A stretch of DNA of 53,320 nucleotides. Origin: Pseudomonadota bacterium (GTDB lineage Bacteria; Pseudomonadota; Alphaproteobacteria; SP197). The notes under the pieces were generated by a model. It was not told where the DNA came from and did not search any database. It was given only the letters and a program-made list of their open reading frames with translations. The position numbers and the translations under genes were made by a program. Shown here piece after piece: positions 357-52,486 of the stretch (within the stretch, counting starts at the first letter, position 1; each line of letters begins with the position of its first letter). The stretch spans positions 1 through 53,320 of the forward strand of contig JAQCLG010000004.1 of NCBI GenBank assembly GCA_027592745.1. The letters run 5' to 3'.

Positions 357-953
357 TCAGTAGACCTCGAAATGGGCCTCGGTCGGCTGCACGCCCTGAC
401 CGTTGATCGGCAGGATATCCTGCGGGCAGGCCGACATGGCCACGACACAGTCGATCTCGGCGCGCAGGACGATGTAGTCGCCGGGTTTGGTGGCGGGCGG
501 GTCGAAGGAAAGCGCGCCGTCGGCGGTCCAGGGGATGTTCATGAAGACATTGAAGGGCGGCGGCGTGTGCGTCTCCTTCATGCCCAGTTCCGAGAGACCA
601 TGGGTCAGGTTGTCGGCGCAGTTGTCGTGGTAGCCCTCGACGCCGAGCAGGCCGTAGCGCCAGCGGTCGCAGGCCGCGATGATGGTGTCGTGGACGCCGG
701 GCGAGGTGTCCTCGACCAGGGTCAGGATCGGCCGGCGCCGGTTGGTCAGCAGGGCATCGCCGACCCTGGGGATCATCCGCAGGTTGAAGGCGCGCGTGGC
801 CTCCATCGACATGAACTCGGAAGTGTCGCCCTCGACGAAGGCCCAGGTATCGACGACCTGCTCGCCATGGGTGTTGATGATCTTGATGTGCTGGCCCTTC
901 TTGACATGCGCGGCCTTGCCGCTGCGTGCCGGTACCGTCTGCAGATTGCCCAT
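357..953 (-). CDS. DUF1989 / urea carboxylase-associated family protein
   Basis: This 198-residue protein belongs to the DUF1989 family, whose best-studied members (CgdA/CgdB, formerly urea carboxylase-associated proteins) are subunits of carboxyguanidine deiminase. Supporting motifs are HGEQVVDTWAF near residue 35, a central Cys/Asp-rich segment (ACDRWRYG, DNCADN) and the C-terminal SACPQD...P.NG signature. The ATG at 953-951 gives the normal family length; longer upstream reading has no homology. It is divergent from the glycosylase gene across an 82-bp gap and is followed by the permease. A paralogue lies at 10356-10982. No guanidine or urea carboxylase is in the window, so the substrate is open; a deaminase or deiminase role is inference. 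Confidence 0.85.
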   Translation of the reverse strand: MGNLQTVPARSGKAAHVKKGQHIKIINTHGEQVVDTWAFVEGDTSEFMSMEATRAFNLRMIPRVGDALLTNRRRPILTLVEDTSPGVHDTIIAACDRWRYGLLGVEGYHDNCADNLTHGLSELGMKETHTPPPFNVFMNIPWTADGALSFDPPATKPGDYIVLRAEIDCVVAMSACPQDILPINGQGVQPTEAHFEVY

Positions 954-10355: not shown

Positions 10356-10982
10356 ATGGGCAGGAAGCTGATCGAGGACATCGTCGTGCCGGCGCGCGAG
10401 GCGCGTGCCGTGGTGGTGCACAAGGGCCAGTTCCTGCGCATCGTCGACATGGAGGGCGAGCAAGTCGCCGACATCGTCTTCTACAATGCCGAACGGCTCA
10501 CGGAGACCTACTCCATGGCCCATTCGGTCTATCTCAACATGCTCCAGGGCACCGGCGACATCCGCATGGTCAAGACGCTCTGGTCGAGCCCGCCCCATGA
10601 ACAGGTGATGATGACGGTGACCGACGATCCGGTCGCCTGCCATTGCCTGGCGCTGGGCACCTGCTGCTCCAGCAGGGTCTATGACGTGCTCTACGGCGAA
10701 CCCGGCCATGCCAGCTACGCGACGAGCCTGGCCCGCGCCCTGGCGCCCCACGGCGTGCCGGCCAACCTGCCCGATGTCTTCAACGCCTTCATGCCCTTCG
10801 ACCCCGAACGCTGGTATGCCGGCGACCCGAAGTTCCGTTCGCCGCCGACGCAGCCCGGCGACTACCTAGAGCTGCGCGCCGAGATCGACGTGCTGGTCGG
10901 CGTCTCGGCCTGTCCCAGCGACCGCACGCCGACCAACGGATTCAAGCCGACGCCGCTGCGCGTTCAGGTATTCTCCGGCTGA
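10356..10982 (+). CDS. DUF1989 / urea carboxylase-associated family protein, second copy
   Basis: A 208-residue paralogue of the DUF1989 gene at 357-953. Shared marks include EGEQVADIVFYN near residue 33, TQPGDYLELRAEIDVLVGVSAC-type C-terminal text and the SACPSD.TPTNG signature; a CC pair near residue 108 is specific to this copy. In characterised systems two DUF1989 proteins act together as a carboxyguanidine deiminase (CgdAB), but here the copies are 9 kb apart on opposite strands. It sits between the GntR regulator and the CocE hydrolase, in one direction with short gaps, suggesting shared control. The chemistry is inferred. Confidence 0.85.
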   Translation: MGRKLIEDIVVPAREARAVVVHKGQFLRIVDMEGEQVADIVFYNAERLTETYSMAHSVYLNMLQGTGDIRMVKTLWSSPPHEQVMMTVTDDPVACHCLALGTCCSSRVYDVLYGEPGHASYATSLARALAPHGVPANLPDVFNAFMPFDPERWYAGDPKFRSPPTQPGDYLELRAEIDVLVGVSACPSDRTPTNGFKPTPLRVQVFSG

Positions 10983-13120: not shown

Positions 13121-14728
13121 TCAGGCCTGGCTGTCGTCGATCCAGACGTCGTCCCAGTAGAGCGAGCCGACGTACATGAAGGGATGCCCCTTCATGCCCT
13201 GCACCTTGTTGGCGAGACCATCGGTCCAGTTGATGAAGACCGGGGTGATGGTCGAGCCTTCCGAGGCCATCAGCATCTGGATGTCGCAGTACATCTGCTT
13301 GCGCTTGTCGAAATCCAGCTCCTTGCGGGCGTCGAGCAGGAGGCTGTCGAAGGTCGGGTTCGACCAGCGGCTTTCGTTCCAAGAGGCGCCCGAGACATAG
13401 GCAACCGACAGCATCTGGTCGGCCGTCGGACGGCCGTACCAGGACGAGCCGCACCAGGGCACCTGCATCCAGATGGCGCTCCAGTAACCGTCCGAAGGCA
13501 CCCGGTTGATCTGCACGTTGACGCCGCTCTCACGCATCAGCTCGGCCATGACGATCGAGGCATTGGCGCCGCCGAAGTTGGTATCGGCCGCAGTCAGCTC
13601 GAAGGTGGCGTTCGTCATGCCGGCCTTCTCGAGGTAGAACTTCACCTTGTCGGGATCGGCCGACGGCACCGGCACTTCCTCGCACCAGAACGGGTCATGC
13701 GGCGGCACCGGATGGTCGCGACCGACCACACCCAGGCCGTCGAAGGCCAGATCGAGCATGCGCTGGCGGTCGAACGACCACTTCAGCGCCTGGCGCACGT
13801 TGTTGTCGCTGTAGGGAGCGGTGTCGGCCAGCATCGGATAGGTCGGATGGGCACCGCCCGGCTGCGACAGGATGCGGGCGCTGTCGGAAGCCTCGACCTG
13901 CTTCACCAGGTTGCCCTCGACGCCGATGACGACATCGACCTCGCCCGAGACCAGCGCATTGACGCGGGCACCGTTGTCGGGAATGGCGAAGAACTCGATC
14001 TCATCGAGGTAGGGGCGCCCTTCCTTGTGATAGTTGGCGTGCCGCTTGAAGATCGACACGATGCCCGGATCGAATTCCTCGACCATGAACGGGCCGGAGG
14101 TGACGACATTGCCGGAGGAGTAGGCCGCTGCGTCCTGTCCTTCGGGCGCCACGGTGAAGTGGTACTCGGCCATCAGGTAGGGAACGTCGACGTTGGTCTG
14201 GTTCATCTTGAAGACCAGCGTGTTGCCGTCCGCGGTGATCGATTCCACATCGCCCAGATAGGCATTGGCGGCCGAACCCTGCTCGGGATCGAGATGACGG
14301 TTGAACGAATAGGCCGCGTCGGCAGCGGTGATCGTCTTGCCGTTGGAAAACTCGGCGCCCTCGATCATCTTGAAGCGCCATTCCGTGGCGTCGGCGTTGG
14401 ACTCCCACTCGGAGGCAAGATTGGGCACCAGGCCCTGCTCGGGGAAGAAGTCGATCAGGCGGCTGCCCAGCAGCTGGGAGCGCGAGATGTCGATCGCCTG
14501 GACGATCTTGGTCGGGTCGATGGTATCGCCCGCGTGGCTCGAATCCGCGGCGGCGACGATGCGTCCGCCGGCCTTGGGCTCGGCAGCCTGCGCCTTGGTG
14601 ATGCTCTGCTCGACGATCGTGGCGGCAGCCGAGGCCGTCAGGCCCATGCTCATCAGGCCGGCATTGAAGTCGCGGCGCGACACCTTGCCCTTGATGAACT
14701 CGTTGATCAGAAGCTCTTTCTTTGTCAC
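13121..14728 (-). CDS. ABC transporter substrate-binding protein, family 5 (dipeptide/oligopeptide type)
   Basis: A 535-residue family-5 periplasmic binding protein, standard DppA/OppA length. The start is a GTG at 14728-14726. The N-terminus carries a twin-arginine-like motif, SRRDFNAGL at residues 17-25, before the export signal ending KAQA. Family features include DATEWRFKMIEGAEFSNGKT-type text near residue 115 and YSDNNVRQALKWSFDRQRML near residue 305. It lies about 2.9 kb from the dipeptide-type permease/ATPase operon at 17580-21246 and is its likely binding protein, though on the other strand. Codon use is slightly less GC-biased than in neighbours, as expected for an abundant protein. 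Confidence 0.92.
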   Translation of the reverse strand: MTKKELLINEFIKGKVSRRDFNAGLMSMGLTASAAATIVEQSITKAQAAEPKAGGRIVAAADSSHAGDTIDPTKIVQAIDISRSQLLGSRLIDFFPEQGLVPNLASEWESNADATEWRFKMIEGAEFSNGKTITAADAAYSFNRHLDPEQGSAANAYLGDVESITADGNTLVFKMNQTNVDVPYLMAEYHFTVAPEGQDAAAYSSGNVVTSGPFMVEEFDPGIVSIFKRHANYHKEGRPYLDEIEFFAIPDNGARVNALVSGEVDVVIGVEGNLVKQVEASDSARILSQPGGAHPTYPMLADTAPYSDNNVRQALKWSFDRQRMLDLAFDGLGVVGRDHPVPPHDPFWCEEVPVPSADPDKVKFYLEKAGMTNATFELTAADTNFGGANASIVMAELMRESGVNVQINRVPSDGYWSAIWMQVPWCGSSWYGRPTADQMLSVAYVSGASWNESRWSNPTFDSLLLDARKELDFDKRKQMYCDIQMLMASEGSTITPVFINWTDGLANKVQGMKGHPFMYVGSLYWDDVWIDDSQA

Positions 14729-14910
14729 AGCGTGTCTCTCCCTAAGAGTCTGGTCCTGCCCTGTTGCCGGACAGAATCGCTGCCGACAACGTTAGTCGAA
14801 AAATCGTCAGTTTACATAGCAATCCGTGGTCCTGACCGGAATCGACCCAAGGCTGCGTATTGCCGACGTTTTGCAATCGCCGGGATGGAAGCCTCCTGCT
14901 GGTGCAGGCC

Positions 14911-16179
14911 TCAGGCGGCGGTGCGCAGGCGGGCCGCGATGGCTTCGATCTGCGCGATGCCGGTCAGGTAGGCGCCATGGCAGGTCGAGAAGAACTCGCT
15001 CGAACTGGCCTCGCCGGCGAAATAGAGGACGTCATCGACCGGGCGGGCCAGCTCGGCGCGCGCATGGCCGTGACCCGGCATCGCACCCGAGTAGGACCCC
15101 AGGGTCCAGGGGTCGCTTTCCCAGGCCGTGACGATGGTGCGCTCGCTCAACGAGGCGCGGATGTTGCTGCCGTAGGCGGCGACCAGGCGCTCGGTCATGT
15201 GGTCGATCGAGGCGGCGATGCCCGCGCGCTCCAGCCACGAGCCGTGCCGGCCGCCGGTGACGCCGGAGACATAGTCCATGCCGAAGGGGCGGATCTGGAT
15301 CGACATCGGCACCTCGTCGGCATCGCCGATCTGGATCGTGGCGTCCGCCGGCGCCTCGGGCGGAAAGCGATTGTCCTTGAGCATGATGCCGATGCGGTTG
15401 TGCACGCCCAGGGGCAGGGCCGCGGCGGCCTCGAGCTTCCAGTCGGGCAGCCCGGGATCGAAGACGATGCCGCCCGAGGTCAGGACATTGGTCGAGACCG
15501 TGACCAGCGCCGTGCGGCCGGCAATGGTTCCCCTGGCCGTCTCGACGCGCACGCCCGAACCGCTCCAGATGATGCGTTCGGCCCTGGCGTTGAGCGTCAC
15601 GGGAACCTCGGCGGCCCAGCGTGCGACCAGGGCGCCGAAACCCTCGCGCAGGGGCCAGTTCTCGTCGGTGTCGTTGTAGTTGGTGACGTCCAGCACCGAG
15701 ACCTGGTCGATGTCGCGCGAGGTGCCCAGGGAGAACCAGTAGGCCATGAATGGCGCCCAGGGCGCCGCCAGGTCGATGACATCGGCGACCGCGACATCGC
15801 GGCCCTCGGCGCCGGCGGCATCGATGGCGGCGTGGTCGGCCTCCATGCCGTCCATCCAGCGCTGGCGCTCGTCCTCGGGCAGGAAGGCGCCGCCCGCGAA
15901 GATGTTGGAGCGCCACTGGCTGTCGCGCCGGTAGGAGAAGCCATGTTCGTCGGCGATCGCCACGAAGGGATTGAGGCTGGCCGAATGCATCCAGTGGCAG
16001 CCCAAGTCGTAGGGAATGCCCGGGGCGAATTCCTCGGTGTAGGCGCGGCCACCGATGCGGTGCGAAGCCTCGATCAGGGCGAAGCTCAGGCCGTGCGCTG
16101 CCGCCGCCTTTGCCGCCGAGAGACCGGCCGAACCGGCCCCGATGATGACGACATCGACGTCGTGCTGCTTGCCTGACAT
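14911..16179 (-). CDS. FAD-dependent amine oxidase-family oxidoreductase
   Basis: A 422-residue flavoprotein of the flavin amine oxidase family. The dinucleotide-binding motif GAGSAG is at residues 14-19, followed by E.s.r.GGR at 37-45 and, near the C-terminus, the second FAD signature DDVLYFAGEASSSEF followed by a conserved GAYLTG. Enzymes of this kind oxidise primary or secondary amines to imines with O2 or an acceptor. The ATG at 16179-16177 has GGAGTCCTT upstream; a start 16 codons earlier lacks the family pattern. It lies between the binding protein and the divergent AI-2E gene, so its substrate may be an imported amine. Confidence 0.9.
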   Translation of the reverse strand: MSGKQHDVDVVIIGAGSAGLSAAKAAAAHGLSFALIEASHRIGGRAYTEEFAPGIPYDLGCHWMHSASLNPFVAIADEHGFSYRRDSQWRSNIFAGGAFLPEDERQRWMDGMEADHAAIDAAGAEGRDVAVADVIDLAAPWAPFMAYWFSLGTSRDIDQVSVLDVTNYNDTDENWPLREGFGALVARWAAEVPVTLNARAERIIWSGSGVRVETARGTIAGRTALVTVSTNVLTSGGIVFDPGLPDWKLEAAAALPLGVHNRIGIMLKDNRFPPEAPADATIQIGDADEVPMSIQIRPFGMDYVSGVTGGRHGSWLERAGIAASIDHMTERLVAAYGSNIRASLSERTIVTAWESDPWTLGSYSGAMPGHGHARAELARPVDDVLYFAGEASSSEFFSTCHGAYLTGIAQIEAIAARLRTAA

Positions 16180-16325
16180 GAAGGACTCCGCTCTATGGGG
16201 CCGGCAAGGTAGCTGGCCTGCCCCCACGCTGCCAAGCCATGCCTTTCCGGGGAAAGCAGCAGCGCCTTGCCGCAGGCTGCAACGCTGCCTATGGTCTGCC
16301 TCCGCCTGGGCAATGCGAGCAGCGC

Positions 16326-17390
16326 ATGAAGCCGATCCGCGACTGGTTCCGTCATACCTTTTCCGATCCGCAGGTCCTGCTGCTGACGGTGCTGCTGGTC
16401 ATTGCCGTGATCGCGATCGTCTTCGTGGCCCACATGGTCGCGCCGGTGATTGCCGCGCTGGTCATCGCCTTCCTGCTCGACAGCCTGGTCGAACGCCTGA
16501 AGCTGCGCGGCGTGCGTCACATCGTTGCGGTGATCGGGGTCTACATCGCCTTCGTCGTGGCCGCGTTGGTCTTCCTGGGCGGCCTGCTGCCGCTGCTGAC
16601 GCGCCAGACCATCGAGTTCGCGCACCAGATTCCCCAGATGATCGCGACCCTGCGCGATGAACTGCTGACCCTGCCTGGACGTTATCCCGACTTCGTCACG
16701 GCCGATCAGGTCCATGGCGTCATGGGCGATCTCGGCCGTTCGATCACGGGGCTGGTCCATTCGCTGCCGTCGATGGCGGGCTCCTCGGTGGTCAACCTGC
16801 TGACCGCCATCGTCTACATGATCCTGGTCCTGTTGCTGGTCTTCTTCATGATCAAGGACAAGACCAAGATCCTGAACTGGCTGGCGAGCTTCCTGCCGCG
16901 CGAACGGGGATTGACGACGTCGGTCTGGCACGAGGTCAACGACCAGGTCGGCAACTACGTGCGCGGCAAGTTCTGGGAAATCGTCATCGTCGGCGTCGTG
17001 ACCTGGGTCGTCTTTGCCCTGCTGGGTGTCGAGTTCGCCATCCTGCTTGCCGTCATCACGGGGCTATCCGTGCTGATTCCCTATGTCGGGGCCGCCGCGG
17101 TCACGGTGCCGGTCGCCCTGATCGGCTTCGTCCAGTGGGGATTCTCCTGGGAATTTGCCTGGATCATGATCGCTTACGGCATCATCCAGGCGCTCGACGG
17201 CAACCTGCTGGCGCCGCTGCTGTTCAGCGAGGTCGTCAACCTGCATCCCATCGCCATCATCGTGGCAATCCTGATCTTCGGCGGCATCTGGGGCTTCTGG
17301 GGCGTCTTCTTCGCGATACCCCTGGCGACCGTGGTGCAGGCGGTGATCCGCGCCTGGCCCAAGAATTCGGCCTGGCGCAAGCCGATCTAG
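16326..17390 (+). CDS. AI-2E/PerM-family membrane protein
   Basis: A 354-residue inner-membrane protein of the AI-2E (UPF0118, PerM/YdiK/TqsA) family with about eight hydrophobic helices. Typical marks are VVNLLTAIVYMILVLLLVFF in the middle, the segment LIPYVGAAAVTVPVALI and the C-terminal NLLAPLLFSEVVNLHPIAII followed by GGIWGFWGVFFAIPLA. Members export autoinducer-2 or act in Na+/H+ exchange; the substrate here is unknown. It diverges from the amine oxidase gene across 146 bp. Confidence 0.92.
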   Translation: MKPIRDWFRHTFSDPQVLLLTVLLVIAVIAIVFVAHMVAPVIAALVIAFLLDSLVERLKLRGVRHIVAVIGVYIAFVVAALVFLGGLLPLLTRQTIEFAHQIPQMIATLRDELLTLPGRYPDFVTADQVHGVMGDLGRSITGLVHSLPSMAGSSVVNLLTAIVYMILVLLLVFFMIKDKTKILNWLASFLPRERGLTTSVWHEVNDQVGNYVRGKFWEIVIVGVVTWVVFALLGVEFAILLAVITGLSVLIPYVGAAAVTVPVALIGFVQWGFSWEFAWIMIAYGIIQALDGNLLAPLLFSEVVNLHPIAIIVAILIFGGIWGFWGVFFAIPLATVVQAVIRAWPKNSAWRKPI

Positions 17391-17420
17391 GCTCGGGCAC
17401 GGCCGAAATTCGCCGGCTGC

Positions 17421-17441
17421 AACGCATCGTTGCGATGCGTT
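17421..17441. promoter_or_regulatory. Perfect palindrome upstream of the ABC operon
   Basis: A nine-base inverted repeat, AACGCATCG (17421-17429) and CGATGCGTT (17433-17441), has a three-base TTG spacer. It lies 30 bases after the AI-2E stop and 139 bases before the permease start, just upstream of a promoter-like pair of hexamers. It could be an operator for the transporter operon or a terminator hairpin for the preceding gene; no T-tract follows, which favours an operator. Confidence 0.5.
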
Positions 17442-17455
17442 CAAGCAATACGGAC

Positions 17456-17483
17456 TTGCCAAGCAAACTTGCATCCTTACGAT
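17456..17483 (+). promoter_or_regulatory. Candidate sigma70-type promoter for the ABC operon
   Basis: TTGCCA at 17456-17461 and TACGAT at 17478-17483 are separated by 16 bases, within the spacing of housekeeping promoters. The site is 97 bases before the first permease start and directly after the palindrome. The surrounding 100 bases are visibly more AT-rich than the coding sequence. Confidence 0.45.
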
Positions 17484-17579
17484 ATGCGCAATCCCGGCAA
17501 AAAAACGGGGCTGACAAAACGTGTGCGGCGACAGCGCGGCGCGCGGTGCGCGCTGCTGGGGACCTGGGAGCAAGAGGCG

Positions 17580-18527
17580 TTGTTCAAGCTGATCGCAAAG
17601 CGGCTGTTCGTCGGCCTGATCACCTTGCTGGCGATTTCCGTCATCGTCTTTGCCGGCACGGAAATCCTGCCGGGCGATGTCGCGCAGGCCGTGCTGGGAC
17701 AGGCGGCGACCGAAGAGACGCTGGCTGCGCTGCGCGCGACCCTGGGCCTCAACGAGCCGGCCTACGTGCGTTACTTCATCTGGCTCGGTAAATTCCTGAC
17801 CGGCGATCTGGGCGTCGCGCTGACCAACGGCATGCCGCTGGACGGGATCGTCGGCCAGCGCCTGACCAACACGATCTATCTGGCGCTTTATGCGGCGGTG
17901 GTCGCCCTGCCGCTGGCACTGGGCCTGGGGCTCCTGTCGGCGGCCTGGCCGGAAAGCACGTTCGACCGCGTGGTTTCCTCGGTGACGGTCTTCTTCATCT
18001 CCATTCCCGACTTCGTGATCGCCCTGATCCTGGTGCTGATCTTCGCGGTCGAACTGGGCTGGTTCCCCTCGATCAACCCGCGACCGCGCTGGAGCGACTT
18101 CTTCCCGACGCTGGGCGCGATGTTCCTGCCGATGCTCACGCTGGTCCTGTCGGTGCTGGCGCACATCATCCGCATGACCCGTGCGGCCGTGCTCGACGTG
18201 CTCAAGCAGGCCTACATCGAGATGGCCCTGCTCAAGGGCGTGCGGAAGTCGCGCATCATTCTCAAGCATGCCATCCCCAACGCCCTGGGGCCGATCGTCA
18301 ACGTCATTGCGCTGAACCTTGGCTACCTGATCAGCGGTGTCGTCATCGTCGAGGTCGTCTTCAGTTATCCGGGCCTCGGCCGCCTGATGGTCGATTCCGT
18401 CGTCTTCCGCGACGTGCCCCAGATCCAGGTCGTGGCGATGGTGTTCTGCGCCTTCTACGTGTCGCTCAACATCCTTGCCGATGTCGGCGCCATCATGGCC
18501 AACCCGCGACTGAGGTACGCCAAGTGA
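17580..18527 (+). CDS. ABC transporter permease, DppB type
   Basis: The first membrane subunit of a dipeptide/oligopeptide-type importer, with six helices. The EAA cytoplasmic loop reads AYIEMALLKGVRKSRIILKHAIPNAL near residues 215-240. I chose the TTG at 17580, which puts the first helix at the usual place after FKLIAKRLF and gives 315 residues; ATG codons at 17484 and 17430 would add basic, low-complexity residues not expected in the family. GGGAG and AGAGG precede the TTG. Its stop overlaps the next permease by four bases. It should work with the other permease, the fused ATPase and probably the binding protein at 13121-14728. Confidence 0.9.
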   Translation: MFKLIAKRLFVGLITLLAISVIVFAGTEILPGDVAQAVLGQAATEETLAALRATLGLNEPAYVRYFIWLGKFLTGDLGVALTNGMPLDGIVGQRLTNTIYLALYAAVVALPLALGLGLLSAAWPESTFDRVVSSVTVFFISIPDFVIALILVLIFAVELGWFPSINPRPRWSDFFPTLGAMFLPMLTLVLSVLAHIIRMTRAAVLDVLKQAYIEMALLKGVRKSRIILKHAIPNALGPIVNVIALNLGYLISGVVIVEVVFSYPGLGRLMVDSVVFRDVPQIQVVAMVFCAFYVSLNILADVGAIMANPRLRYAK

Positions 18528-19404
18528 GCGAAACAGCCGCCGTCACGCGCGCGCCGCGCAAGCGCAGCAAGCGCGCCCGCCCCAGGCTCGATTTCTGGGC
18601 CTGGCTGGGCGTGTGCATTGTCCTGACCGGACTCTTCCTTGTCGTCTTCGGACCCTATCTGGCGCCCTATCAGGTCGGCCAGATCGTGCCGGGCGCCACG
18701 CAGTTCATGCCGCCCAGCAGCGAAACCCTGATGGGCACCGACATCCTGGGCCGCGACGTCTTCACCCGTCTGCTCTATGGCGCCCGCCTGACGGTTGGCG
18801 TCGCGCTGGCGGCAACTATCCTGGGTTTCCTGCTGGGCATGGCGGTCGGCTTCTCGGCGGCCGAGATCCGCGGCCGCTACGACGACTTCGTCACATGGCT
18901 GATCGACGTCTTCCTGTCGTTCCCGCCGATCCTGCTGGCGCTGATCGTGATCGCCGCGCTTTCGTCGGACCTCTGGGTGCTGATTTGCACCATCGCCGTC
19001 ATCCACTCCTCGCGCGTCGCGCGTATCGGGCGCGCGGTCGCCATGAATGTCGCTGCCCTGGAGTTCGTCGAGGTGGCCCGTGCTCGCGGCGAGAACCTGC
19101 TCTCCATCCTGGTGCGCGAGATCTGGCCTTCCACGATCCGTCCCCTGGCGGTCGAATTCGGCCTGCGCATGACCTATTCGATCCTGTTCCTTTCCAGCCT
19201 TTCCTTCCTTGGCCTGGGCATCCAGCCGCCCGACGCCGACTGGGGTTCCATGGTGAAGGAGAACCTCAACGGCATCCAGACCGGTGCCTATCTCAGCGTT
19301 CTCGCACCGGCCTTTGCCATCGCCATCCTCACGGTCGGCGTCAACCTCATCGTCGACTGGCTGGGTTCGCAGTCAGGCCGCTCCATTTCCGAGGAGCTCA
19401 CGAA

Positions 19405-19408
<4 letters not shown>
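18524..19408 (+). CDS. ABC transporter permease, DppC type
   Basis: The second membrane subunit of the importer, 294 residues. A basic N-terminus precedes the first helix, followed by the family motif MGTDILGRDVFTRLLYGAR near residue 70 and the EAA loop EVARARGENLLSILVREIWP near residue 185. It starts with GTG inside the TGA stop of the DppB-type gene (GTGA overlap) and its own stop overlaps the ATPase start in the same way, so the three are translationally coupled. Confidence 0.95.
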
Positions 19409-21246
<1,838 letters not shown>

Positions 21247-21260
21247 ACCGGGAAGCTGCC

Positions 21261-21554
21261 ATGGCCTTCGGCTACTACATCGTCGAGATCGACGTGAAGA
21301 AACCCGAGATGATGCCGCGGTATCGCGAACTGGTTGGTCCGACGCTGGCGACCTTCGGCGGCGAGATCCTGGCCGCCAGCAACACCGTCAGCCATCTCCA
21401 GGGCGCACCCGCACCGCTGCCGCGCGTCGTCGTCATCCGCTTCCCCAGCTACCAGCGCGCGCTGGACTGGTTCCACAGCGACGACTACGCCGAGGCGCTG
21501 GCCATCCGGGACCAGGCCTGCATCAGCCGCGCCATCGTGGTCGAGGGCCTGTAG
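21261..21554 (+). CDS. DUF1330 family protein
   Basis: A 97-residue cytosolic protein of the DUF1330 family (ferredoxin-like dimeric alpha/beta barrel fold). Family features are GYYIVEIDVKKPEMMPRYRE at the N-terminus and VIRFPSYQRALDWFHSDDY in the second half. It begins 14 bp after the ATPase stop with a GGAAG site, so it is part of the transporter operon. DUF1330 proteins often accompany catabolic enzymes; their biochemical role is not settled. Confidence 0.9.
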   Translation: MAFGYYIVEIDVKKPEMMPRYRELVGPTLATFGGEILAASNTVSHLQGAPAPLPRVVVIRFPSYQRALDWFHSDDYAEALAIRDQACISRAIVVEGL

Positions 21555-21646
21555 CCGGTCAGCCGGCAGCAACGCGATTGTGCATCGGGACGGTGGCTGG
21601 CAGGCTTGGCGTGTGCAGGCCGATGGCGCTGCACCCGGAGGTCGCG

Positions 21647-22207
21647 ATGCACCCTTCCAAGGCTCTCGCTGCGCTCGTCCTGTTGCTGGTGCTGATGCCG
21701 GGGGAGAGCCGTGCGGAGTGCCGGCAGAGTTTCGATCTCGGCCTGACGGAGATCGCAGGCATCCCCCACCAGAGGACCATCCGCTTCGACGACCCCGGGC
21801 TGGGTGTCCAGTTCCGCTTCTTCGCGCCGGGTGCTGCCGGCAATCTCTCCTACATTCGTTTCGACATGGGCCATGCCACGGTCGATGCGGAGATCGAGGC
21901 AGCCTCGCGCGAGCAGATCTGGCAGAACATCAAGATCGTGGCTGATCTCAACGGTGTCGCCATCCAGGGCCCGGCCCGGCTCGACCCTTATCCTGCAGGC
22001 GATGTCGTGATCACCAACGACATCTTCCTGGGCTGGAGTGACGATGCCGTGGCCGTCGAGTTCCTTGGGCTGGGCCATGACCGCAACTGCCTGCACGAGA
22101 TCCGCTTCACCATCGTCGTGCCGCCCCAGGCCGACGAGATCGATGCGGCGCGCAGCCTCTATCGCGAAATCCTTCGGACGCTGGCGCCCTACATCGAGAC
22201 CGACTAG
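21647..22207 (+). CDS. Secreted protein of unknown function
   Basis: A 186-residue protein with a Sec signal peptide (ALAALVLLLVLMPGESRA, then a Cys-containing mature start) and a good GGAGG site ahead of the ATG at 21647. The mature part has two cysteines, one at its start and one near the C-terminal third (GHDRNCLHEIRF), which may pair. It contains DNDIFLG-like acidic turns and is probably a soluble periplasmic protein. It follows the ABC operon by 92 bp and ends in a palindromic repeat. I do not recognise the family. Confidence 0.72.
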   Translation: MHPSKALAALVLLLVLMPGESRAECRQSFDLGLTEIAGIPHQRTIRFDDPGLGVQFRFFAPGAAGNLSYIRFDMGHATVDAEIEAASREQIWQNIKIVADLNGVAIQGPARLDPYPAGDVVITNDIFLGWSDDAVAVEFLGLGHDRNCLHEIRFTIVVPPQADEIDAARSLYREILRTLAPYIETD

Positions 22208-22268
22208 AGCAAATCATCCTTCTGCGGAATCGCTTCGCGATTGCGCAGAAGGATGTGAATCCGCTCTA
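22205..22268. repeat. Long palindromic intergenic element with TAGAGC ends
   Basis: A nested inverted repeat fills the gap between two convergent genes. Outer arms are TAGAGC (22205-22210) and GCTCTA (22263-22268); the inner arms are CATCCTTCTGCG (22215-22226) with CGCAGAAGGATG (22244-22255), and AATCGC with GCGATT around a TTC loop. The arms even overlap the ends of both genes by a few bases. It can act as a bidirectional terminator and looks like a dispersed repeat; a related element is at 46334-46395. Confidence 0.85.
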
Positions 22269-23687
22269 GAGGCAGCGGGGGCGCAGGCCATCCGCGCTGT
22301 ACATGCCGCTCTCCAGCGCCTGTGCCACCCGGAAGACCGCCTTGTCGTCGCAGGGATTGCCGACGATCTGCAGGCCGGTCGGCACACCGTCGGGGGCAAT
22401 GCCGGAAGGCACCGACAGCGCCGGGCAACGGCTGAAGACGTTGAAGGGAAAGGTCATCACGACCTGCTGCACCGAAGCCTGCCGCCCGTCGACCGCGACC
22501 GGGTTCTCCCAGTCGCGGCAGTCGGCGCCGATGCTGGTCGTGCCCACGGTCGGGCAGAGGAAGGCGTCGTGGCGCGCAAGCTCCGGGCCGAACTGCGCCC
22601 ATGCCGCGCCGTAGGCCTTCATCGCCTCGTGGAACATGCGCGGCGTGACGCCGGCGTTCTGATCGGCAAAGAGCCGGGTGTAGTCGCAGACCAGGTCGGG
22701 ATGGTTGTCGGCTGCATCGCGGAATTCGTCGGCATAGATCATGCCGCCCCACCTGCCTGCCATGCGATAGACCGCGTCGGCCCAGGGCGTGGCGATCTCG
22801 CTGACGATGGCGCCGGCCTCCTGCAGCCGCGCGATGGCCGCGCGGGTGTTGGCCTGCACCGCCTGCGAGACGGCGTAGACGCCCAGGTCCATCGACCAGG
22901 CGATCCTCATGCCCCTCACGTCCGGCGGGGTTGCGGGAATGCGCATGCGCTGGGGCAGGGTGGCGTGGTCGCGGGCATGGGGGCCCGACATGACGTTCTG
23001 CATCAGCGCCGCGTCTGCTGCCGTGCGCGTCATCGGGCCGATGTGGAAGAACATGTCCATGGCGACCTCGGGGCTGCCGGGGTTGCGTCCGTAGGGCGGC
23101 TTGTAGCCGGCGATGCCGCACATGGCCGCCGGCATGCGGATCGATCCGGCGCTGTCCGAGCCGGTCGCCAGGGTCGTGGTGCCCGATGCGACTGCCGCGG
23201 CCGCCCCGCCGGAGGAGGCACCGCTGGTGATGGCGGTGTTCCAGGGGTTGCGCGTCACGCCATGGAGGCGCGAGGTACAGGTCCAGGGCCAGACGAACTC
23301 CGGACAGGTCGTCAGCGCGTGGACGATGGCGCCCGCACGCACCAGCCGCGCGACCGAGGGGTTGGTGTGGTCGGCGATGTTGTCGGCAAAGACGAGCGAG
23401 CCGAAGGTGCGCGGTTTTCCCTTCATCGCGGTGTCTTCCTTGACCGCCAGGGTCAGGCCCTCCAGCCGGCGGGGCCGCCCTTCGGTCTTCATGTAGCGCG
23501 CCTCGGCCCTGCGCGCGGCGGCGCGGGCCTCGTCGAAGAAGGTACAGGCCAGGGCATTGATCCGGGGTTCGACCGCTTCGGCACGCGCGATCTGGGCATC
23601 GAGAAGTTCAAGCGGCGAGAGCGTGCGGGCGCGGAAGGCGGCAAGGGCCTGGGTGGCGGGGAGATAACAAAGGTCGAGGTCGCTCAT
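22266..23687 (-). CDS. Amidase (amidase-signature family)
   Basis: A 473-residue amidase-signature enzyme that hydrolyses a carboxamide to acid and ammonia. The Ser-cisSer-Lys triad is visible: VKED with Lys83, GASSGG with Ser158 and GSDSAGSIRMPA with nucleophile Ser182. There is no signal peptide, so it is cytosolic. It is 22 bases upstream of the DUF4010 gene's end on the same strand and converges with the secreted-protein gene. The substrate is not evident; in this setting an imported small amide is plausible. Confidence 0.95.
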   Translation of the reverse strand: MSDLDLCYLPATQALAAFRARTLSPLELLDAQIARAEAVEPRINALACTFFDEARAAARRAEARYMKTEGRPRRLEGLTLAVKEDTAMKGKPRTFGSLVFADNIADHTNPSVARLVRAGAIVHALTTCPEFVWPWTCTSRLHGVTRNPWNTAITSGASSGGAAAAVASGTTTLATGSDSAGSIRMPAAMCGIAGYKPPYGRNPGSPEVAMDMFFHIGPMTRTAADAALMQNVMSGPHARDHATLPQRMRIPATPPDVRGMRIAWSMDLGVYAVSQAVQANTRAAIARLQEAGAIVSEIATPWADAVYRMAGRWGGMIYADEFRDAADNHPDLVCDYTRLFADQNAGVTPRMFHEAMKAYGAAWAQFGPELARHDAFLCPTVGTTSIGADCRDWENPVAVDGRQASVQQVVMTFPFNVFSRCPALSVPSGIAPDGVPTGLQIVGNPCDDKAVFRVAQALESGMYSADGLRPRCL

Positions 23688-25012: not shown

Positions 25013-27055
25013 TCACAGCAGCTTCCGAACGAACTTCTCCGACCAGCGGCGGGCGGAGACCTTCTCCTCGCCGTACCAGGCATCGACCTCGGCCTCGTGG
25101 TGGATGTGGCCGGCGGTCGACCATTGGCGGGTACGCACGTCGATGCGCACGCGCCAGTCGCCGCGCGCCAGGCCGATCGACTGGTCGAAGCTGGCGCTGG
25201 CGCAGAGCGGGTCGTCGTCGTGGATGGTGTAGCAGCGGTCCAGGGTGTGGGCGATCTCCAGCCCGATGGGATCGACGACATAGGTGCCCGCGACCCCGAA
25301 GAATCCGCCCTCGCAGGAGAGCCTGCTGGCGATCTCGCCCGAGACCAGGTCGCGCTCGATCGTGCGGCGGAAATGGCCCGGCTTGACCACGGTCACCGGC
25401 ACGCCGGGGGCCTTCTCGGGTTCGGCGAAGGCGGGCAGGGCGGTATCTTCCTCGCGCGGCGCACGCACCGGCAGCGTGAGCGTGGAGGCGCCGGTGGTCA
25501 GGGTCAGGGTGGCGGCCTCCGACGCCGGCCAGGCCAGGGGCCAGTAGCAGGTCGAGATCGCCAGGCGGATGCGATGGCCGGCCGGGAAGGCGTGGGCGAT
25601 GTCGTTCAACTGCACCCGCACGGTATAGGCCTTGCCGGGCTTCAGCGCGCGGGGTTTCTCGTGGCTGTCGCGGTGGGTCAGGTTGAGGACGGCGTAGGTC
25701 ACCCGCGTCGAGGCGCCGTCGGGAGCGATGTCGTTGAGACGCACCGCGACCTGGGCGACCGGCTTGTCCGAGGCGATGCGCAGCTCGGTGACCGGCGCGC
25801 CGAGGATCTCCAGGCGTTCGGCCAGGGGTTCGGTTTCGAAGCACAGGCTGCGGCCGTCCTCGCTCCTCTGGTCGGGCGGCAGTTCGCCGGCCATGGCAAA
25901 GCCGCACCACTCGCCGCCGTCGACGCCGGTGGAGGCCGGCGAGCGGAAGGCGATGGCGCTGCGCCGGCGCTTGGCGGACTCCAGCCTGCCGTTGCCGTTT
26001 GCATGCAGCACGCGGTCTTCGATGCGCGGCGAGGGCCAGCGGTCCTCGGCGACCCAGCGGCCCGGGCGCTCGGCATAGTTGGTCGCGGGCGGCACGCTCT
26101 CCTGCATCCAGACGCGGTAGTCCGGCTCGTTTTCGATACCGTTCGAGACATCCTTGAGCCAGCGGTCCCACCAGCGCAGGGCGTCCTGCAGAAATCCCAT
26201 GGCCGGGGCGGGCGAACCGTCATGAGGATAGATGTGCGCCCAGGGGCCGACGATGCCGCGGCGCGGTCCCTTGAGTCCGGCGAGCAGGCGCGGGATGGCG
26301 TTGGAATAGCCGTCAGCCCAGCCGCCGATGGCATAGACCGGTACCTCGATGGCTTCGTAGTTCTCACAGACCGAGCCGTGTTTCCAGTAGGCGTCGCGGG
26401 TCTGGTGCTTGAGCCAGGTCAGCGCCCAGGGCTTGTGGGAAGCCAGCCGCTCCTGCCACATCGAGAGCCAGCGCTCGCCGACGATCTGAGGGTCGGGCGG
26501 CGGGTTGTTGAGCGCCATCATGGTTGCCGACCACATCTGGTTGGTATCGAGCAGGCAGCCGCCCATGAAGTGGATGTCGTCGTTGTAGCGATCGTCGGTC
26601 GAGCAGACCGTGAGGATGGCCTTCAGCGCCGGCGGGCGCATGGCCGCGACCTGCAGCGCGTTGAAGCCGCCCCAGGACTTGCCCATCATGCCGACGCTGC
26701 CGTCGCACCAGGGCTGGGCGGCGAGCCAGGCGATGACCTCGGCGCCGTCGTCGAGTTCGGGGACCTGCAGGTATTCGTCGTTCAGCAAGCCGTCGCTGTC
26801 GCCCGCGCCGCGCATGTCGACACGGATGCAGGCATAACCGTGACCGGCGAAATACCTGTGCATGGGTTCGTCACGCGGCCGCGTGAAATCGCGCTTGCGA
26901 TAGGGGATGTACTCCAGGATCGCGGGCACGGGGTTCTGCTCGGCATCCTCGGGCATCCAGATGCGTGCGGCCAGGCGTGCACCGTCCTTGAGTGTGATCC
27001 AGGCGTTCTCGATCTCGCGCACGCTGTTGGAAAACCGCTCGACGATTCGCGCCAT
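25013..27055 (-). CDS. CocE/NonD-family hydrolase, second copy
   Basis: A 680-residue paralogue of the hydrolase at 11005-13053 with the same order: alpha/beta hydrolase domain (GKSWGG with Ser128, GWADGY with Asp248, GPWAHIYPH with His274), then a C-terminal jelly-roll with NLTHRDSHEKPRAL. Both copies share blocks such as PVPAI.EYIPYR.RDFT and TRDAYWKHGSV, so they come from a duplication or parallel acquisition. The ATG at 27055 gives the same N-terminus as the paralogue minus about ten residues. It diverges from the first cupin gene across 81 bp. The substrate is probably an ester or N-acyl compound. Confidence 0.92.
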   Translation of the reverse strand: MARIVERFSNSVREIENAWITLKDGARLAARIWMPEDAEQNPVPAILEYIPYRKRDFTRPRDEPMHRYFAGHGYACIRVDMRGAGDSDGLLNDEYLQVPELDDGAEVIAWLAAQPWCDGSVGMMGKSWGGFNALQVAAMRPPALKAILTVCSTDDRYNDDIHFMGGCLLDTNQMWSATMMALNNPPPDPQIVGERWLSMWQERLASHKPWALTWLKHQTRDAYWKHGSVCENYEAIEVPVYAIGGWADGYSNAIPRLLAGLKGPRRGIVGPWAHIYPHDGSPAPAMGFLQDALRWWDRWLKDVSNGIENEPDYRVWMQESVPPATNYAERPGRWVAEDRWPSPRIEDRVLHANGNGRLESAKRRRSAIAFRSPASTGVDGGEWCGFAMAGELPPDQRSEDGRSLCFETEPLAERLEILGAPVTELRIASDKPVAQVAVRLNDIAPDGASTRVTYAVLNLTHRDSHEKPRALKPGKAYTVRVQLNDIAHAFPAGHRIRLAISTCYWPLAWPASEAATLTLTTGASTLTLPVRAPREEDTALPAFAEPEKAPGVPVTVVKPGHFRRTIERDLVSGEIASRLSCEGGFFGVAGTYVVDPIGLEIAHTLDRCYTIHDDDPLCASASFDQSIGLARGDWRVRIDVRTRQWSTAGHIHHEAEVDAWYGEEKVSARRWSEKFVRKLL

Positions 27056-28470: not shown

Positions 28471-30930
28471 ATGGCAGGCAAGGTTCCAGGCAAGGCAAAG
28501 GTCGTCGTCATCGGCGGTGGTATCGTCGGCACGTCGATCGCCTATCACCTGACCAAACGCGGCGTTTCCGACGTGCTGCTGCTTGAGCGCGACCAGCTGA
28601 CCAGCGGCACGACCTGGCATGCGGCGGGCCTGGTGGGCCAGCTGCGGCCCAGCCACAACCTGACCAAGCTCGCCAGTTATGCGGTCGAGCTTTATCCGCG
28701 CCTGGAGGAGGAGACCGGGCAGGCGACCGGCTTCAAGCAGGTCGGCTCGATCACGCTCGCCCAGACGCCGGAGCGCTTCCACGAGCTCAAGCGTTCGGCC
28801 AGCATGGCCAACGGCTTCGGCGTCGAGGTCCGCGTGCTGACCCCGGCGCAGGTCGCCAAACTCAATCCCGTGATCCGGGTCGACGACATCGTCGGCGCCG
28901 TGCACATGCCGAAAGACGGCCAGACCAACCCGATCGACACGACCCAGGCGCTGGCGCGCGGCGCGCGGATGGGCGGGGCGACCATCGTCGAGAAATGCAC
29001 GGCAACGAAGCTGGTGAAGAAGGGCCAGAACATTGTCGCCGTGGAGACCGACCAGGGGGTCATCGAGGCCGAACAGGTCGTGCTGGCCTGCGGCATGTGG
29101 ACGCGCCAGATCGCTGCCTCGGTCGGCCTGACGGTGCCGCTGCAGGCGGCCGAGCACATGTATATCGTCACCGAGCCGATGGAGGGCCTGCCCGCCGACC
29201 TGCCGGTGCTGCGCGACTACGACAGCTACATCTACATCAAGGAGGACGCCGGCAAGCTTCTGGTCGGCGGCTTCGAGCCGGTCGCCAAGCCCTGGCAGAC
29301 CGACGGCATCCCCGACGACATCTCCTTCCTGCACCTGCCCGAGGACTGGGACCACTTCCAGATCCTGATGGACGGCGCGCTCAACCGGGTGCCGGCGATG
29401 GAACATGCCGGCGTGCGCACCTTCTTCAACGGCCCTGAGAGCTTCACGCCCGACAACCGCTACCACATGGGCCGCGCGCCGGGTTTCGGGAACCTGTTCG
29501 TGGCCGCCGGCATGAACTCCATCGGCATCGCCTCGGGCCCCGGCATCGGCAAGGCGCTGGCCGACTGGATCGTCGACGGCGAATCGCCGCTCGATCTCGC
29601 CGACGTCGACCTCATGCGCGCCGAACCCTTCCAGCGCGCCCGCGACTATCTCGCCGACCGCACGGTCGAGACCCTGGGCCTGCTCTATGCCATGCACTGG
29701 CCCTACTTCCAGCCGACCACGGCGCGCGGCGCCCGCCGGCTGCCCTATCACGATCGCTGCAAGGCCGCCGGCGCGGTCTTCGGCGACGTCCAGGGCTGGG
29801 AACGGCCGCTTTACTATGTCGAAGGCGATGAACCGCGCGAGATGGCCTACGGTTATGGGCGCCAGTCCTGGCACGACGCCACGGCGCGCGAGGCAAGGGC
29901 GACCCGCGAGGCGGTCGCGCTCTACGACCTCTCGACCTTCGCCAAGTTCAAGGTCCAGGGTGCCGATGCGATGGCGGTGCTCAACCGCCTTTGCACCGCC
30001 AACGTCGACGTCGAGGTCGGCAAGGCGGTCTATACCCAGATGCTGAACCACAAGGGCGGCATCGAGGCCGACCTCACCGTCACGCGCCTGGCCGAAACCC
30101 GTTTCATGGTCGTCACCGGCACCGCCGTGCGCCAGCACGACCGCTCCTGGATCGAGCGCAACATCCCTGCCGAGGCCCGCGTCGCCCTGACCGACGTCAC
30201 CTCGGGCTACGCCGTGCTCGGCCTGATGGGGCCGAAGTCGCGCGAACTGCTTGCCGGCCTCACCGCGGCCGACCTCTCGCCCGAGGCCTTCCCCTTCGGC
30301 GGCAGTCGCGAACTGGAGGTCGCCTACGCCCCGGCGCGCGCCCAGCGCACCAGTTATGTCGGCGAACTGGGCTACGAGCTCTACGTGCCGACCGAATTTG
30401 CCCAGCACCTGCACGAGCGGCTGTGCGATGCGGGCGAGGCCTTCGGCCTGCGCCTGGCCGGCATCTTCTGCCAGGACGCCCTGCGCATGGAGAAGGGCTT
30501 CAAGCACTGGGGCCACGACATCGGTCCGGACGATACACCACTGGAAGCCGGCCTCGCCTTTGCCGTCGCCTGGGACAAGCCGGGCGGCTTCATCGGCCTG
30601 GAGGCTCTACAGGCCAAGCGCGAGGCCGGTCTCGACCGGCGCCTCGTCAACTTCACCCTGCCGGGCTGCGAACCCGGCGCGCCGCTGCTGCTCCACGAGG
30701 AGCCGATCTGGCGCGACGGCGCGATCGTCGGCACGACCACTTCAGGCGGTTTTGCCTTCACCCTGGGCTGCCCGATCAGCATGGGCTACGTGAAAAACCG
30801 GGACGGCAAGGCCGACCGCGACTGGATCATGGGCGGCACCTACCAGATCGAGGTCGCTGGCGAGCGCTTCGCAGCCACCCCCAGCCTCGGCGCGCCCTTC
30901 GACCCCAAGGGCGAGCGCATGCGGGCCTGA
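28471..30930 (+). CDS. FAD-dependent oxidoreductase with GcvT domain (dimethylglycine/sarcosine dehydrogenase type)
   Basis: An 819-residue two-domain enzyme. Residues 1-420 form a DAO-type FAD domain with VVVIGGGIVG (11-20) and TTWHAAGLVG, where His50 matches the covalent flavin site of dimethylglycine dehydrogenase. Residues 430-819 are a folate-binding GcvT/aminomethyltransferase domain (DLSTFAKFKVQG, TSYVGELGYELYVP, and a GcvT C-terminal barrel). Such enzymes oxidise an N-methyl group and pass the one-carbon unit to tetrahydrofolate. The ATG at 28471 lies 17 bases after the cupin gene. The exact methylated substrate is unknown. Confidence 0.93.
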   Translation: MAGKVPGKAKVVVIGGGIVGTSIAYHLTKRGVSDVLLLERDQLTSGTTWHAAGLVGQLRPSHNLTKLASYAVELYPRLEEETGQATGFKQVGSITLAQTPERFHELKRSASMANGFGVEVRVLTPAQVAKLNPVIRVDDIVGAVHMPKDGQTNPIDTTQALARGARMGGATIVEKCTATKLVKKGQNIVAVETDQGVIEAEQVVLACGMWTRQIAASVGLTVPLQAAEHMYIVTEPMEGLPADLPVLRDYDSYIYIKEDAGKLLVGGFEPVAKPWQTDGIPDDISFLHLPEDWDHFQILMDGALNRVPAMEHAGVRTFFNGPESFTPDNRYHMGRAPGFGNLFVAAGMNSIGIASGPGIGKALADWIVDGESPLDLADVDLMRAEPFQRARDYLADRTVETLGLLYAMHWPYFQPTTARGARRLPYHDRCKAAGAVFGDVQGWERPLYYVEGDEPREMAYGYGRQSWHDATAREARATREAVALYDLSTFAKFKVQGADAMAVLNRLCTANVDVEVGKAVYTQMLNHKGGIEADLTVTRLAETRFMVVTGTAVRQHDRSWIERNIPAEARVALTDVTSGYAVLGLMGPKSRELLAGLTAADLSPEAFPFGGSRELEVAYAPARAQRTSYVGELGYELYVPTEFAQHLHERLCDAGEAFGLRLAGIFCQDALRMEKGFKHWGHDIGPDDTPLEAGLAFAVAWDKPGGFIGLEALQAKREAGLDRRLVNFTLPGCEPGAPLLLHEEPIWRDGAIVGTTTSGGFAFTLGCPISMGYVKNRDGKADRDWIMGGTYQIEVAGERFAATPSLGAPFDPKGERMRA

Positions 30931-49842: not shown

Positions 49843-49911
49843 GCGGTAACCCTTGTTTACAGGTGGACAGGCGGGCAAAGATGCGCGCCGCCAGAAGGAC
49901 AGGAGAGGGTG

Positions 49912-50220
49912 ATGGACGCCATCGATCCCGCGCGCAAGGACCTTGTCGAGGAGTTTCGCGCCAGGCCGGTGGGTCGCCAGTCGGGCGACCTGCGGCGGCT
50001 GCTCAACACCATGCGCCGCCATCCCGACCTGCCGCCCTACATCCTGGTCTGCACGCGGCCCCAGCGCGAATGGCGACTGGCGAGCAAACCCGCCGGGCGC
50101 GGCGTCACCACCACGCTGCTCGACCATCCCCCGTTCCACGATCCGCTGGAAGCCGAATGGCAGGTCTTCCGCCTGCGCTGGAAAGCCCTGACCGGAGAGG
50201 ACCTGCCCCATGAGCGCTGA
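49912..50220 (+). CDS. Putative small subunit of an N,N-dimethylformamidase-like enzyme
   Basis: A 102-residue basic helical protein. It has AGGAGAGGG before the ATG at 49912 and its end overlaps the formamidase-like large-subunit gene by 11 bases, so the two are coupled. Characterised dimethylformamidases are made of a small subunit of about 130 residues and a large one of about 760, encoded in this order. The segments RRLLNTMRRHPDLPPYILV, REWRLA and the C-terminal FRLRWKAL resemble, from memory, the small subunit's LQ.V.NYFR, SEREW and FLRR.ED regions. The match is weak and the protein is some 30 residues shorter. Confidence 0.6.
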   Translation: MDAIDPARKDLVEEFRARPVGRQSGDLRRLLNTMRRHPDLPPYILVCTRPQREWRLASKPAGRGVTTTLLDHPPFHDPLEAEWQVFRLRWKALTGEDLPHER

Positions 50221-52486
50221 CCTGCCGCGCAAGCGCATCATCGGCTACGCCGACAAGCTTTCCCTCGCCCCGGGCGAGACCATCGCCTTCAAGGCAAGCT
50301 GCGAGGACATCGCGCAGTACCGCGCCGATATCGTGCGCCTGGTCTGCGCCGACCTGCATCCCCAGGGCCGCGGCTGGATCGAGGAGGAGATCGCAACGCC
50401 CGTGTCGGGCAGTTATCCCGGCCGCGAGCAGGCGATTCCCGTGGGCTCCTGGGCGTTGGTCGAGTCTGCGCTGGGCCTGTGCAGCCAGAGCCTGACCGTC
50501 GCCCTGCAGCTCTGGCCGACGACGCCGCACAAGGGCGAGCAGGCCCTTCTGGCGCGCATGGACATTGCGGGCAGCCGCGGCTGGATGCTGCTGATCGACG
50601 ATGCCGGCGCCATCGCCCTGCGCATCGCCACGGCCGAGGGGGTCACCACCGTGAGCACGGGGGTGGCGGTGCAGGAGCGGGTCTGGAGTTTCGTCGGCGC
50701 CAGCTTCGATGCCGCCAGCGGCGCCATCCGCGTCTGGCAGCGGCCGCAGAAGACCTGGCCCGGCCACGACGCCACCGGCGACGGCGAGGGATCGGCAAGG
50801 GGTACGCTCGACACGGCCGGCCTCTCGCTCGGCATTGCCGCCCGGCCCGGCCGTGTCGAGGGGCCGCGCCGCTTCTGCCTCGATCCCTGCAACGGCAAGC
50901 TGGAGGCACCGCGCCTCTACGGCCGCGCCATGGAGGCCGGCGAGGCCCTGGCCCTGCAGGAAACCGCGGCCCGCGAGCGCAGCCTGATCGCGGCCTGGGA
51001 TTTCGCCCGCGACACGATGGGCGAGCGCGTGCGCGACACCGGCCCGTCGGCCCATGACGGCTGCCTGATCAACGTGCCGACCCGCGCCATGACCGGTCAC
51101 AACTGGGACTGCAGCGTGATGGACTGGAAGGCCGCGCCGCAGCAGTACGGCGCGATCCACTTCCACGACGACGACATCGCCGACAGCGGCTGGGAGACCG
51201 ATTTTGCCCTGACCGTGCCGCAGGGGCTCAAGAGTGGCATCTATGCCGCGCGCCTGGTCGCGGGCGAGCAGAGCGACCACATCCCCTTTGTCGTGCGGGC
51301 CCCGCGCGGCACCGCCACGGCCGATGCGCTGTTCCTGATGCCCTCGGCCAGTTACCTCGCCTATGCCAACGAACACGGCGCGATCGAGAGCGCCGGCGCG
51401 ATGGATGCCTTCTCGGGCCATCTCTCGGGGCTGTCTGCCCAGGACCTGCTGCTCGGCGAGAGGCCCGACCTCGGCTACTCGCTCTACTGCCATCACGGCG
51501 ACGGCTCGGGCGTGGCGGTCAGCTCGCGCCTGCGCCCGGTGCTCAACATGCGCCCGGGCGTGACCAACGCCTGGGTCGGCCCGGCCGGCACCTTCCCCTG
51601 GCAGTTCAACGCCGACCTGCCGCTGGTCGATTTCCTGGAGCACGAGGGTTTCGCCTTCGACGTGGCGACCGACGAGGACCTGCACGACGAGGGGCTCGAC
51701 CTGCTCTCGCGCTACCGCGTGGTGCTGACCGGCAGCCACCCCGAGTACTACTCCAAGCCCATGCTCGATGCCCTGGACGGCTGGCTGCAGCGCGGCGGCC
51801 GGCTGATGTACCTGGGCGGCAACGGCTTCTACTGGCGCGTCGCCTTCCATCCGGAGATCAAGGGCGTCATGGAACTGCGCCGGGGCGAGGACGGCATCCG
51901 CGACTGGGTTTCCCAGGGCGGCGAATACTACCAGGCCTTCGACGGCGCCTATGGCGGCATGTGGGAGCGTCAGGGCCGGCCGATCCACGCCCTTGCCGGT
52001 GTCGGCATGGCGGGCCAGGGCTTCGACATCAGCGGTTTCTACCGCCGCACCGCCGCAAGCCGGGATCCGCGCGCGGCCTTCGTCTTCGAAGGCATCGAGG
52101 ACGAGATCATCGGCGATTTCGGCACGGTCGGCGGCGGTGCCGCCGGCATCGAGGTCGACCGCTGCGACTTCGCCAAGGGCTCGCCGCCCAACACCCTGGT
52201 GCTGGCCAGTTCGGAGGGGCTTTCCGACCTCTACTATCCGGGGCCCGAGGAGATCGACAACGCGCGGCCCTTCATGGACGGCTCGCAGAATCCCAACCTG
52301 CGTGCCGACATGACGTTCCATGAGACGGCCGGCGGCGGCGCGGTGTTCTCGACCGGCTCGATCGCCTGGATCGGCAGCCTGTCCTGGAACGGTTTCGACA
52401 ACAATGTCGCCGGCGTCACGGCCAACGTCCTGCGCCGTTTCCTCGATCCAGAACCGTTTCAGGGGATAGGGAAAACCACGACGTGA
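50210..52486 (+). CDS. N,N-dimethylformamidase-like large subunit
   Basis: A 758-residue protein matching the large subunit of N,N-dimethylformamidase in length and layout: an N-terminal beta domain, a LamG-like insert (residues 90-265, e.g. SLTVALQLWPTT and WSFVGASFDAASG), then a glutamine-amidotransferase-like alpha/beta domain. The enzyme splits dimethylformamide or related N-alkyl formamides to formate and an amine. Paracoccus enzyme has a two-Tyr, one-carboxylate iron site; here Tyr385 (LAYANEH), Tyr426 (YSLYCHHG) and Glu512 (GSHPEYYS) occupy similar spacings. No signal peptide. Whether dimethylformamide is the true substrate is open. Confidence 0.85.
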   Translation: MSADLPRKRIIGYADKLSLAPGETIAFKASCEDIAQYRADIVRLVCADLHPQGRGWIEEEIATPVSGSYPGREQAIPVGSWALVESALGLCSQSLTVALQLWPTTPHKGEQALLARMDIAGSRGWMLLIDDAGAIALRIATAEGVTTVSTGVAVQERVWSFVGASFDAASGAIRVWQRPQKTWPGHDATGDGEGSARGTLDTAGLSLGIAARPGRVEGPRRFCLDPCNGKLEAPRLYGRAMEAGEALALQETAARERSLIAAWDFARDTMGERVRDTGPSAHDGCLINVPTRAMTGHNWDCSVMDWKAAPQQYGAIHFHDDDIADSGWETDFALTVPQGLKSGIYAARLVAGEQSDHIPFVVRAPRGTATADALFLMPSASYLAYANEHGAIESAGAMDAFSGHLSGLSAQDLLLGERPDLGYSLYCHHGDGSGVAVSSRLRPVLNMRPGVTNAWVGPAGTFPWQFNADLPLVDFLEHEGFAFDVATDEDLHDEGLDLLSRYRVVLTGSHPEYYSKPMLDALDGWLQRGGRLMYLGGNGFYWRVAFHPEIKGVMELRRGEDGIRDWVSQGGEYYQAFDGAYGGMWERQGRPIHALAGVGMAGQGFDISGFYRRTAASRDPRAAFVFEGIEDEIIGDFGTVGGGAAGIEVDRCDFAKGSPPNTLVLASSEGLSDLYYPGPEEIDNARPFMDGSQNPNLRADMTFHETAGGGAVFSTGSIAWIGSLSWNGFDNNVAGVTANVLRRFLDPEPFQGIGKTTT

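Follow-up and report, generated by a model that had tools for sequence, protein, structure and literature searches.

Two overlapping genes in the window, the 53,320-nucleotide stretch of DNA that was analyzed, raise the question of whether they form an operon for a two-subunit enzyme of the N,N-dimethylformamidase (DMFase) family and, if so, which amide that enzyme cleaves. The pair very probably encodes a heteromeric mononuclear non-haem iron(III) amide hydrolase of this family. The locus has the following layout.

49912-50220, + strand: small-subunit gene, 102 aa, DmfA1-like, with an N terminus shorter than that of Paracoccus DmfA1 (assigned by profile, fold and alignment)
50210-52486, + strand: large-subunit gene, 758 aa, DmfA2-like, Pfam DMFA2_C (PF20254), predicted three-domain Fe(III) amide hydrolase (assigned by homology and model)
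50210-50220, + strand: 11-nt gene overlap; translational coupling is probable
49901-49905, + strand: AGGAG ribosome-binding site of the small-subunit gene, 6 nt 5' of the ATG at 49912 (read from the sequence)
50194-50200, + strand: GGAGAGG ribosome-binding site of the large-subunit gene, located within the small-subunit gene 9 nt 5' of the ATG at 50210 (read from the sequence)

The coordinates, the lengths of the two open reading frames and their overlap agree with an earlier note on this DNA. Both reading frames are selected as coding by a gene call based on codon usage, and both ribosome-binding sites are purine-rich. A promoter scan returned no sigma-70-like site, a result that is uninformative because the genome is GC-rich.

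The large protein was compared with the PDB using phmmer. The best match is the DMFase large subunit (6lvb_A; E = 2.3e-156, residues 10-750), followed by N-acetyl-(R)-beta-phenylalanine acylase (8huy_A; E = 2e-133), and the Pfam family DMFA2_C (PF20254) is matched with E = 1e-96. Judged from these sequence comparisons, the homology is far beyond chance. A literature search with the Pfam name DMFA2_C and the accession PF20254 found no paper. An AlphaFold model built from 19 sequences (pLDDT 86, pTM 0.88) superimposes on 6lvb_A over the full length with a TM score of 0.93 and an rmsd of 2.3 Å across 768 columns, and on the acylase 8huy with a TM score of 0.86. Full-length homology to the DMFase large subunit extends through the Ig-like, pentraxin-like and ThuA-like catalytic domains.

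The roles of the iron ligands and catalytic residues are taken from work on the Paracoccus DMFase (Arya et al. 2020; PMC7686228), and an alignment places the corresponding residues of the window protein at these codons.

51362-51364, + strand: Y385, iron ligand, equivalent to Y399 of the Paracoccus DMFase
51485-51487, + strand: Y426, iron ligand, equivalent to Y440
51737-51739, + strand: H510, essential second-sphere histidine, equivalent to H519
51743-51745, + strand: E512 of the GSHPE motif, iron ligand, equivalent to E521
51821-51823, + strand: N538, oxyanion residue, equivalent to N547
52151-52153, + strand: E648, proposed catalytic base, equivalent to E657
52259-52261, + strand: N684, at the position of the pocket-gating F693

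Y385, Y426, H510, E512 and E648 are invariant among 27 aligned relatives, and N538 is kept in all of them except one, which has Asp. The earlier note had given the large protein the layout of a DMFase large subunit, had placed a two-Tyr, one-carboxylate iron site at Tyr385, Tyr426 and Glu512, and had named superposition on the Paracoccus enzyme as one check. The whole-length fit, with the ligand residues aligned one to one, bears out both proposals.

The identity of the 102-residue protein is less direct. Searches of the PDB, Pfam and NCBIfam with the single sequence gave no meaningful match, so a family profile was needed. This blank result, together with the solo large proteins encoded in the same genome, would favor the view that the short reading frame encodes no subunit and the large protein works alone. 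A profile made of 12 relatives matched the DMFase small subunit 6lvb_B with E = 1.4e-6, the next best PDB entry having E = 0.07, and it also retrieved the genuine DmfA1 of P. aminophilus pAMI2, with which the family can be aligned. The predicted structure (pLDDT 84.8) matched 6lvb_B with a probability of 1.00 and a TM score of 0.70, and nothing significant was found in the PDB outside DMFase chains. Because both the profile and the fold point to 6lvb_B only, the 102-residue protein is, as judged from profile and model, a genuine, shortened DMFase small subunit.

The shortening is at the N terminus. The profile match begins at residue 41 of the 132-residue 6lvb_B chain, the first helix of the model is merely short (residues 9-17), and the long N-terminal helix of the Paracoccus small subunit is absent from the 102-residue protein by profile, model and alignment. 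Conservation of the protein in its orthologues starts exactly at its ATG, and misannotation therefore does not explain the short N terminus. In the Paracoccus DMFase the small-subunit N-terminal helix is wedged between two large subunits (PMC7686228). With this helix missing, the quaternary packing of the predicted complex may differ from that of the Paracoccus enzyme, and the long helix is possibly not a trait of the DMFase family.

Co-occurrence and gene fusion connect the two proteins. The 61 genomes surveyed comprise the window's own and others of the same genus or family and the same class; 20 of them encode the large protein, and the small-subunit profile finds members in exactly the same 20. 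Small genes directly precede a large gene in the same orientation in 58 of 64 cases, and pairing conserved in so many genomes is far beyond chance. The two are fused in one continuous reading frame (...FRLRWERLTGRPLPLGAPIVLDGVPLHPVVEERPLAYADRW...) in six genomes, the window's own included, and the fusions form one fully supported clade in the tree. The fusion in the window's genome (G000) is on contig C187 at 15791-18325 (L031:6792-9326) and encodes a chain of about 845 residues; the same fusion is found in the five other genomes at L064-L068. Operon structure, co-occurrence and fusion make a physical partnership of the small and large proteins very likely, presumably through direct contact. 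Profile, fold, synteny and fusion evidence, the codon-usage score of the short reading frame and its conservation from the ATG together leave very little room for a large protein that works alone. The earlier note's suggestion that the 102-residue protein is a short small subunit is thus upheld, and the similarity to known small subunits that it had set as a check is detected by both profile and fold. The tree contains 13 large proteins that lack an adjacent small gene, and the deposited acylase entries contain large-type chains only; the small subunit is therefore dispensable in some family members.

Membership in the family, the conserved active site and the pairing of the genes are results of this analysis; the working model for the window pair takes its mechanism and docking from the Paracoccus enzyme. 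The small subunit would be translated first, coupled to the large gene, and by analogy would dock on the catalytic domain, stabilize it and help form the substrate entrance. Iron(III) held by Y385, Y426 and E512 would act as a Lewis acid toward the amide carbonyl and a bound water, E648 would serve as the base and N538 would stabilize the oxyanion. Hydrolysis of the C-N bond would then yield a carboxylate and an amine.

Three known systems resemble the window pair. DmfA1A2 (Paracoccus sp. DMF, PDB 6lvb; P. aminophilus pAMI2) has the same small-large gene order with an overlap, a three-domain large subunit, all of the iron ligands and catalytic residues, and the same small-subunit fold. The identity is about 40% for the large subunit and 27-31% for the small one, which has 102 residues in the window but 132-141 in DmfA1, the N-terminal 30-40 being those that are missing. 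The window operon also differs in having Asn for F693, no LuxR-type regulator directly upstream and a location that is not on a small plasmid. AceAB of Pigmentiphaga sp. D-2, compared by its description in a review (PMC11573777), is likewise a two-subunit amidase of the DMFase family, and it acts on acetamiprid, not on DMF. The N-acetyl-(R)-beta-phenylalanine acylase (PDB 8huy, 8i59, 8i5a), the name of which refers to an N-acetyl beta-amino acid substrate, is a homologue of the large subunit; its second-ligand Tyr aligns, as do His and Glu within the motif G(S/T)HPEY. It differs in that its deposited entries lack a small chain, whereas members of the window clade are always paired.

The shared fold, catalytic residues and two-subunit plan would fit a true N,N-dimethylformamidase, with DMF or N-methylformamide as the physiological substrate and formate and (di)methylamine as products. 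The Paracoccus DMFase also takes formamide, N-methylformamide and N-ethylformamide; in that enzyme F693, contributed by the neighboring large subunit, constricts the pocket (PMC7686228). Against this reading, the identity is modest and the window protein has N684 in place of F693, although the column is variable in the 27-relative alignment and Phe stands there in several paralogues whose host organisms are not known as DMF users, so this residue alone does not decide specificity. A gene of PF11927, the family of the dimethylamine monooxygenase subunit DmmA, was found neither in the window's own genome nor in nine related genomes; other dimethylamine routes are possible. DMF itself is a recent industrial chemical (PMC7686228). 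The window operon has a conserved setting: in orthologous operons the retained neighbors are an inositol-monophosphatase-family gene and a 3-hydroxyisobutyrate-dehydrogenase-like gene, and the surrounding gene order is conserved between genera. The locus is therefore old and vertically inherited, unlike a plasmid- or IS-borne system such as that of pAMI2. The replacement of F693, the lack of a PF11927 gene, vertical inheritance and two relatives that cleave other amides make DMF or N-methylformamide unlikely as the natural substrate. The enzyme probably acts on a natural amide, and we infer an N-formyl, N-acyl or N-methyl amide other than DMF.

Within this preferred reading, the enzyme could be an acylase-like hydrolase of N-acyl (beta-)amino acids that serves amino acid or peptide scavenging. 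The acylase is the second-closest relative of solved structure, and family members at other loci adjoin amino-acid importers, a dipeptidase and a D-amino-acid dehydrogenase. The window operon has none of these as a neighbor, and the invariable pairing of its clade sets it apart from the acylase. N-acyl amino acids are thus a possible substrate class, but one on the doubtful side; DMF-like formamides receive a clearly smaller share of our expectation, and other natural amides the remainder.

The neighbors of the window operon itself gave no pointer to the substrate. The earlier note had seen the operon in a setting of amidases, a demethylase and importers. Such genes are present in the window, namely an amidase (22266-23687), a sarcosine/dimethylglycine-dehydrogenase-like gene (28471-30930) and an importer (13121-21246), but they are some 20-40 kb away, outside the operon and outside the conserved synteny block, and were rejected as functional evidence. 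Neighbors of the paralogues include importer components, a dipeptidase, Rieske oxygenases and an aminotransferase, and these fit the catabolism of nitrogen compounds in general.

The window's genome contains ten large-subunit genes and four small ones. Among 15 other genomes of the same family, 14 have 4-10 large-subunit matches each, some of them partial genes, and one has none. The genes occur in four architectures: a small-large pair, a fusion, a solo large gene, and a tandem of two or three large genes behind one small gene. In a tree of 48 rows the window operon belongs to a group of 14, every one of which is paired with a small gene, and elsewhere on this tree there are several switches between having and lacking a small gene alongside; the tree is a quick one with several long branches, and its deeper order is unsure. 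A cluster of one small and three tandem large-subunit genes is located on contig C32 of the window's genome at 15694-22691 (L025:7695-14692), 3' of a gene read by eye as groEL-like, and similar clusters occur in other genomes of the family. A Rieske/ring-hydroxylating oxygenase gene that follows the C32 cluster is apparently split into two frames.

The window pair is a further member of the known DMFase family. The lineage-specific expansion to which it belongs is striking and comprises paired, fused and solo forms. The copy number, the minimal small subunit and the fusions go beyond a routine family assignment. The evolutionary origin of the folds in the Paracoccus enzyme has been described as unknown. 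In a lineage that maintains about 4-10 copies per genome, together with a minimal small subunit and naturally fused forms, the natural substrates of the 2-Tyr-1-carboxylate iron site and the purpose of the DMFase small subunit can be sought directly, and the fused single-chain forms would be handy biocatalysts. We tentatively suggest, at somewhat less than even confidence, that the up to ten iron amide hydrolases per genome, in four architectures, constitute a broad natural scavenging system for N-formyl, N-acyl or N-methyl amides, that DMF-degrading enzymes were recruited from this system, and that the small subunit of a tandem cluster may serve several large subunits.

Several minor features of the loci were also recorded. 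A gene read by eye as groEL-like (L016:8350-10020) is convergent with and just 3' of an orthologous operon; a groEL-like gene also adjoins the C32 cluster, which may be a coincidence. One orthologue (L018:6001-8251) is broken into two reading frames, either by decay or by an assembly error. In the window, an Mrr-type restriction endonuclease gene (PF04471; 52538-53203, - strand) lies at the end of the contig and is oriented convergently to the operon. Two genes of the uncharacterized family DUF1989 (PF09347) are at 357-953 (- strand) and 10356-10982 (+ strand). Two X-Pro dipeptidyl-peptidase (S15, CocE-like) genes at 11005-13053 (+ strand) and 25013-27055 (- strand) flank genes for an oligopeptide-type binding protein, an amine oxidase and an amidase, an arrangement that suggests a region for peptide or amide uptake.
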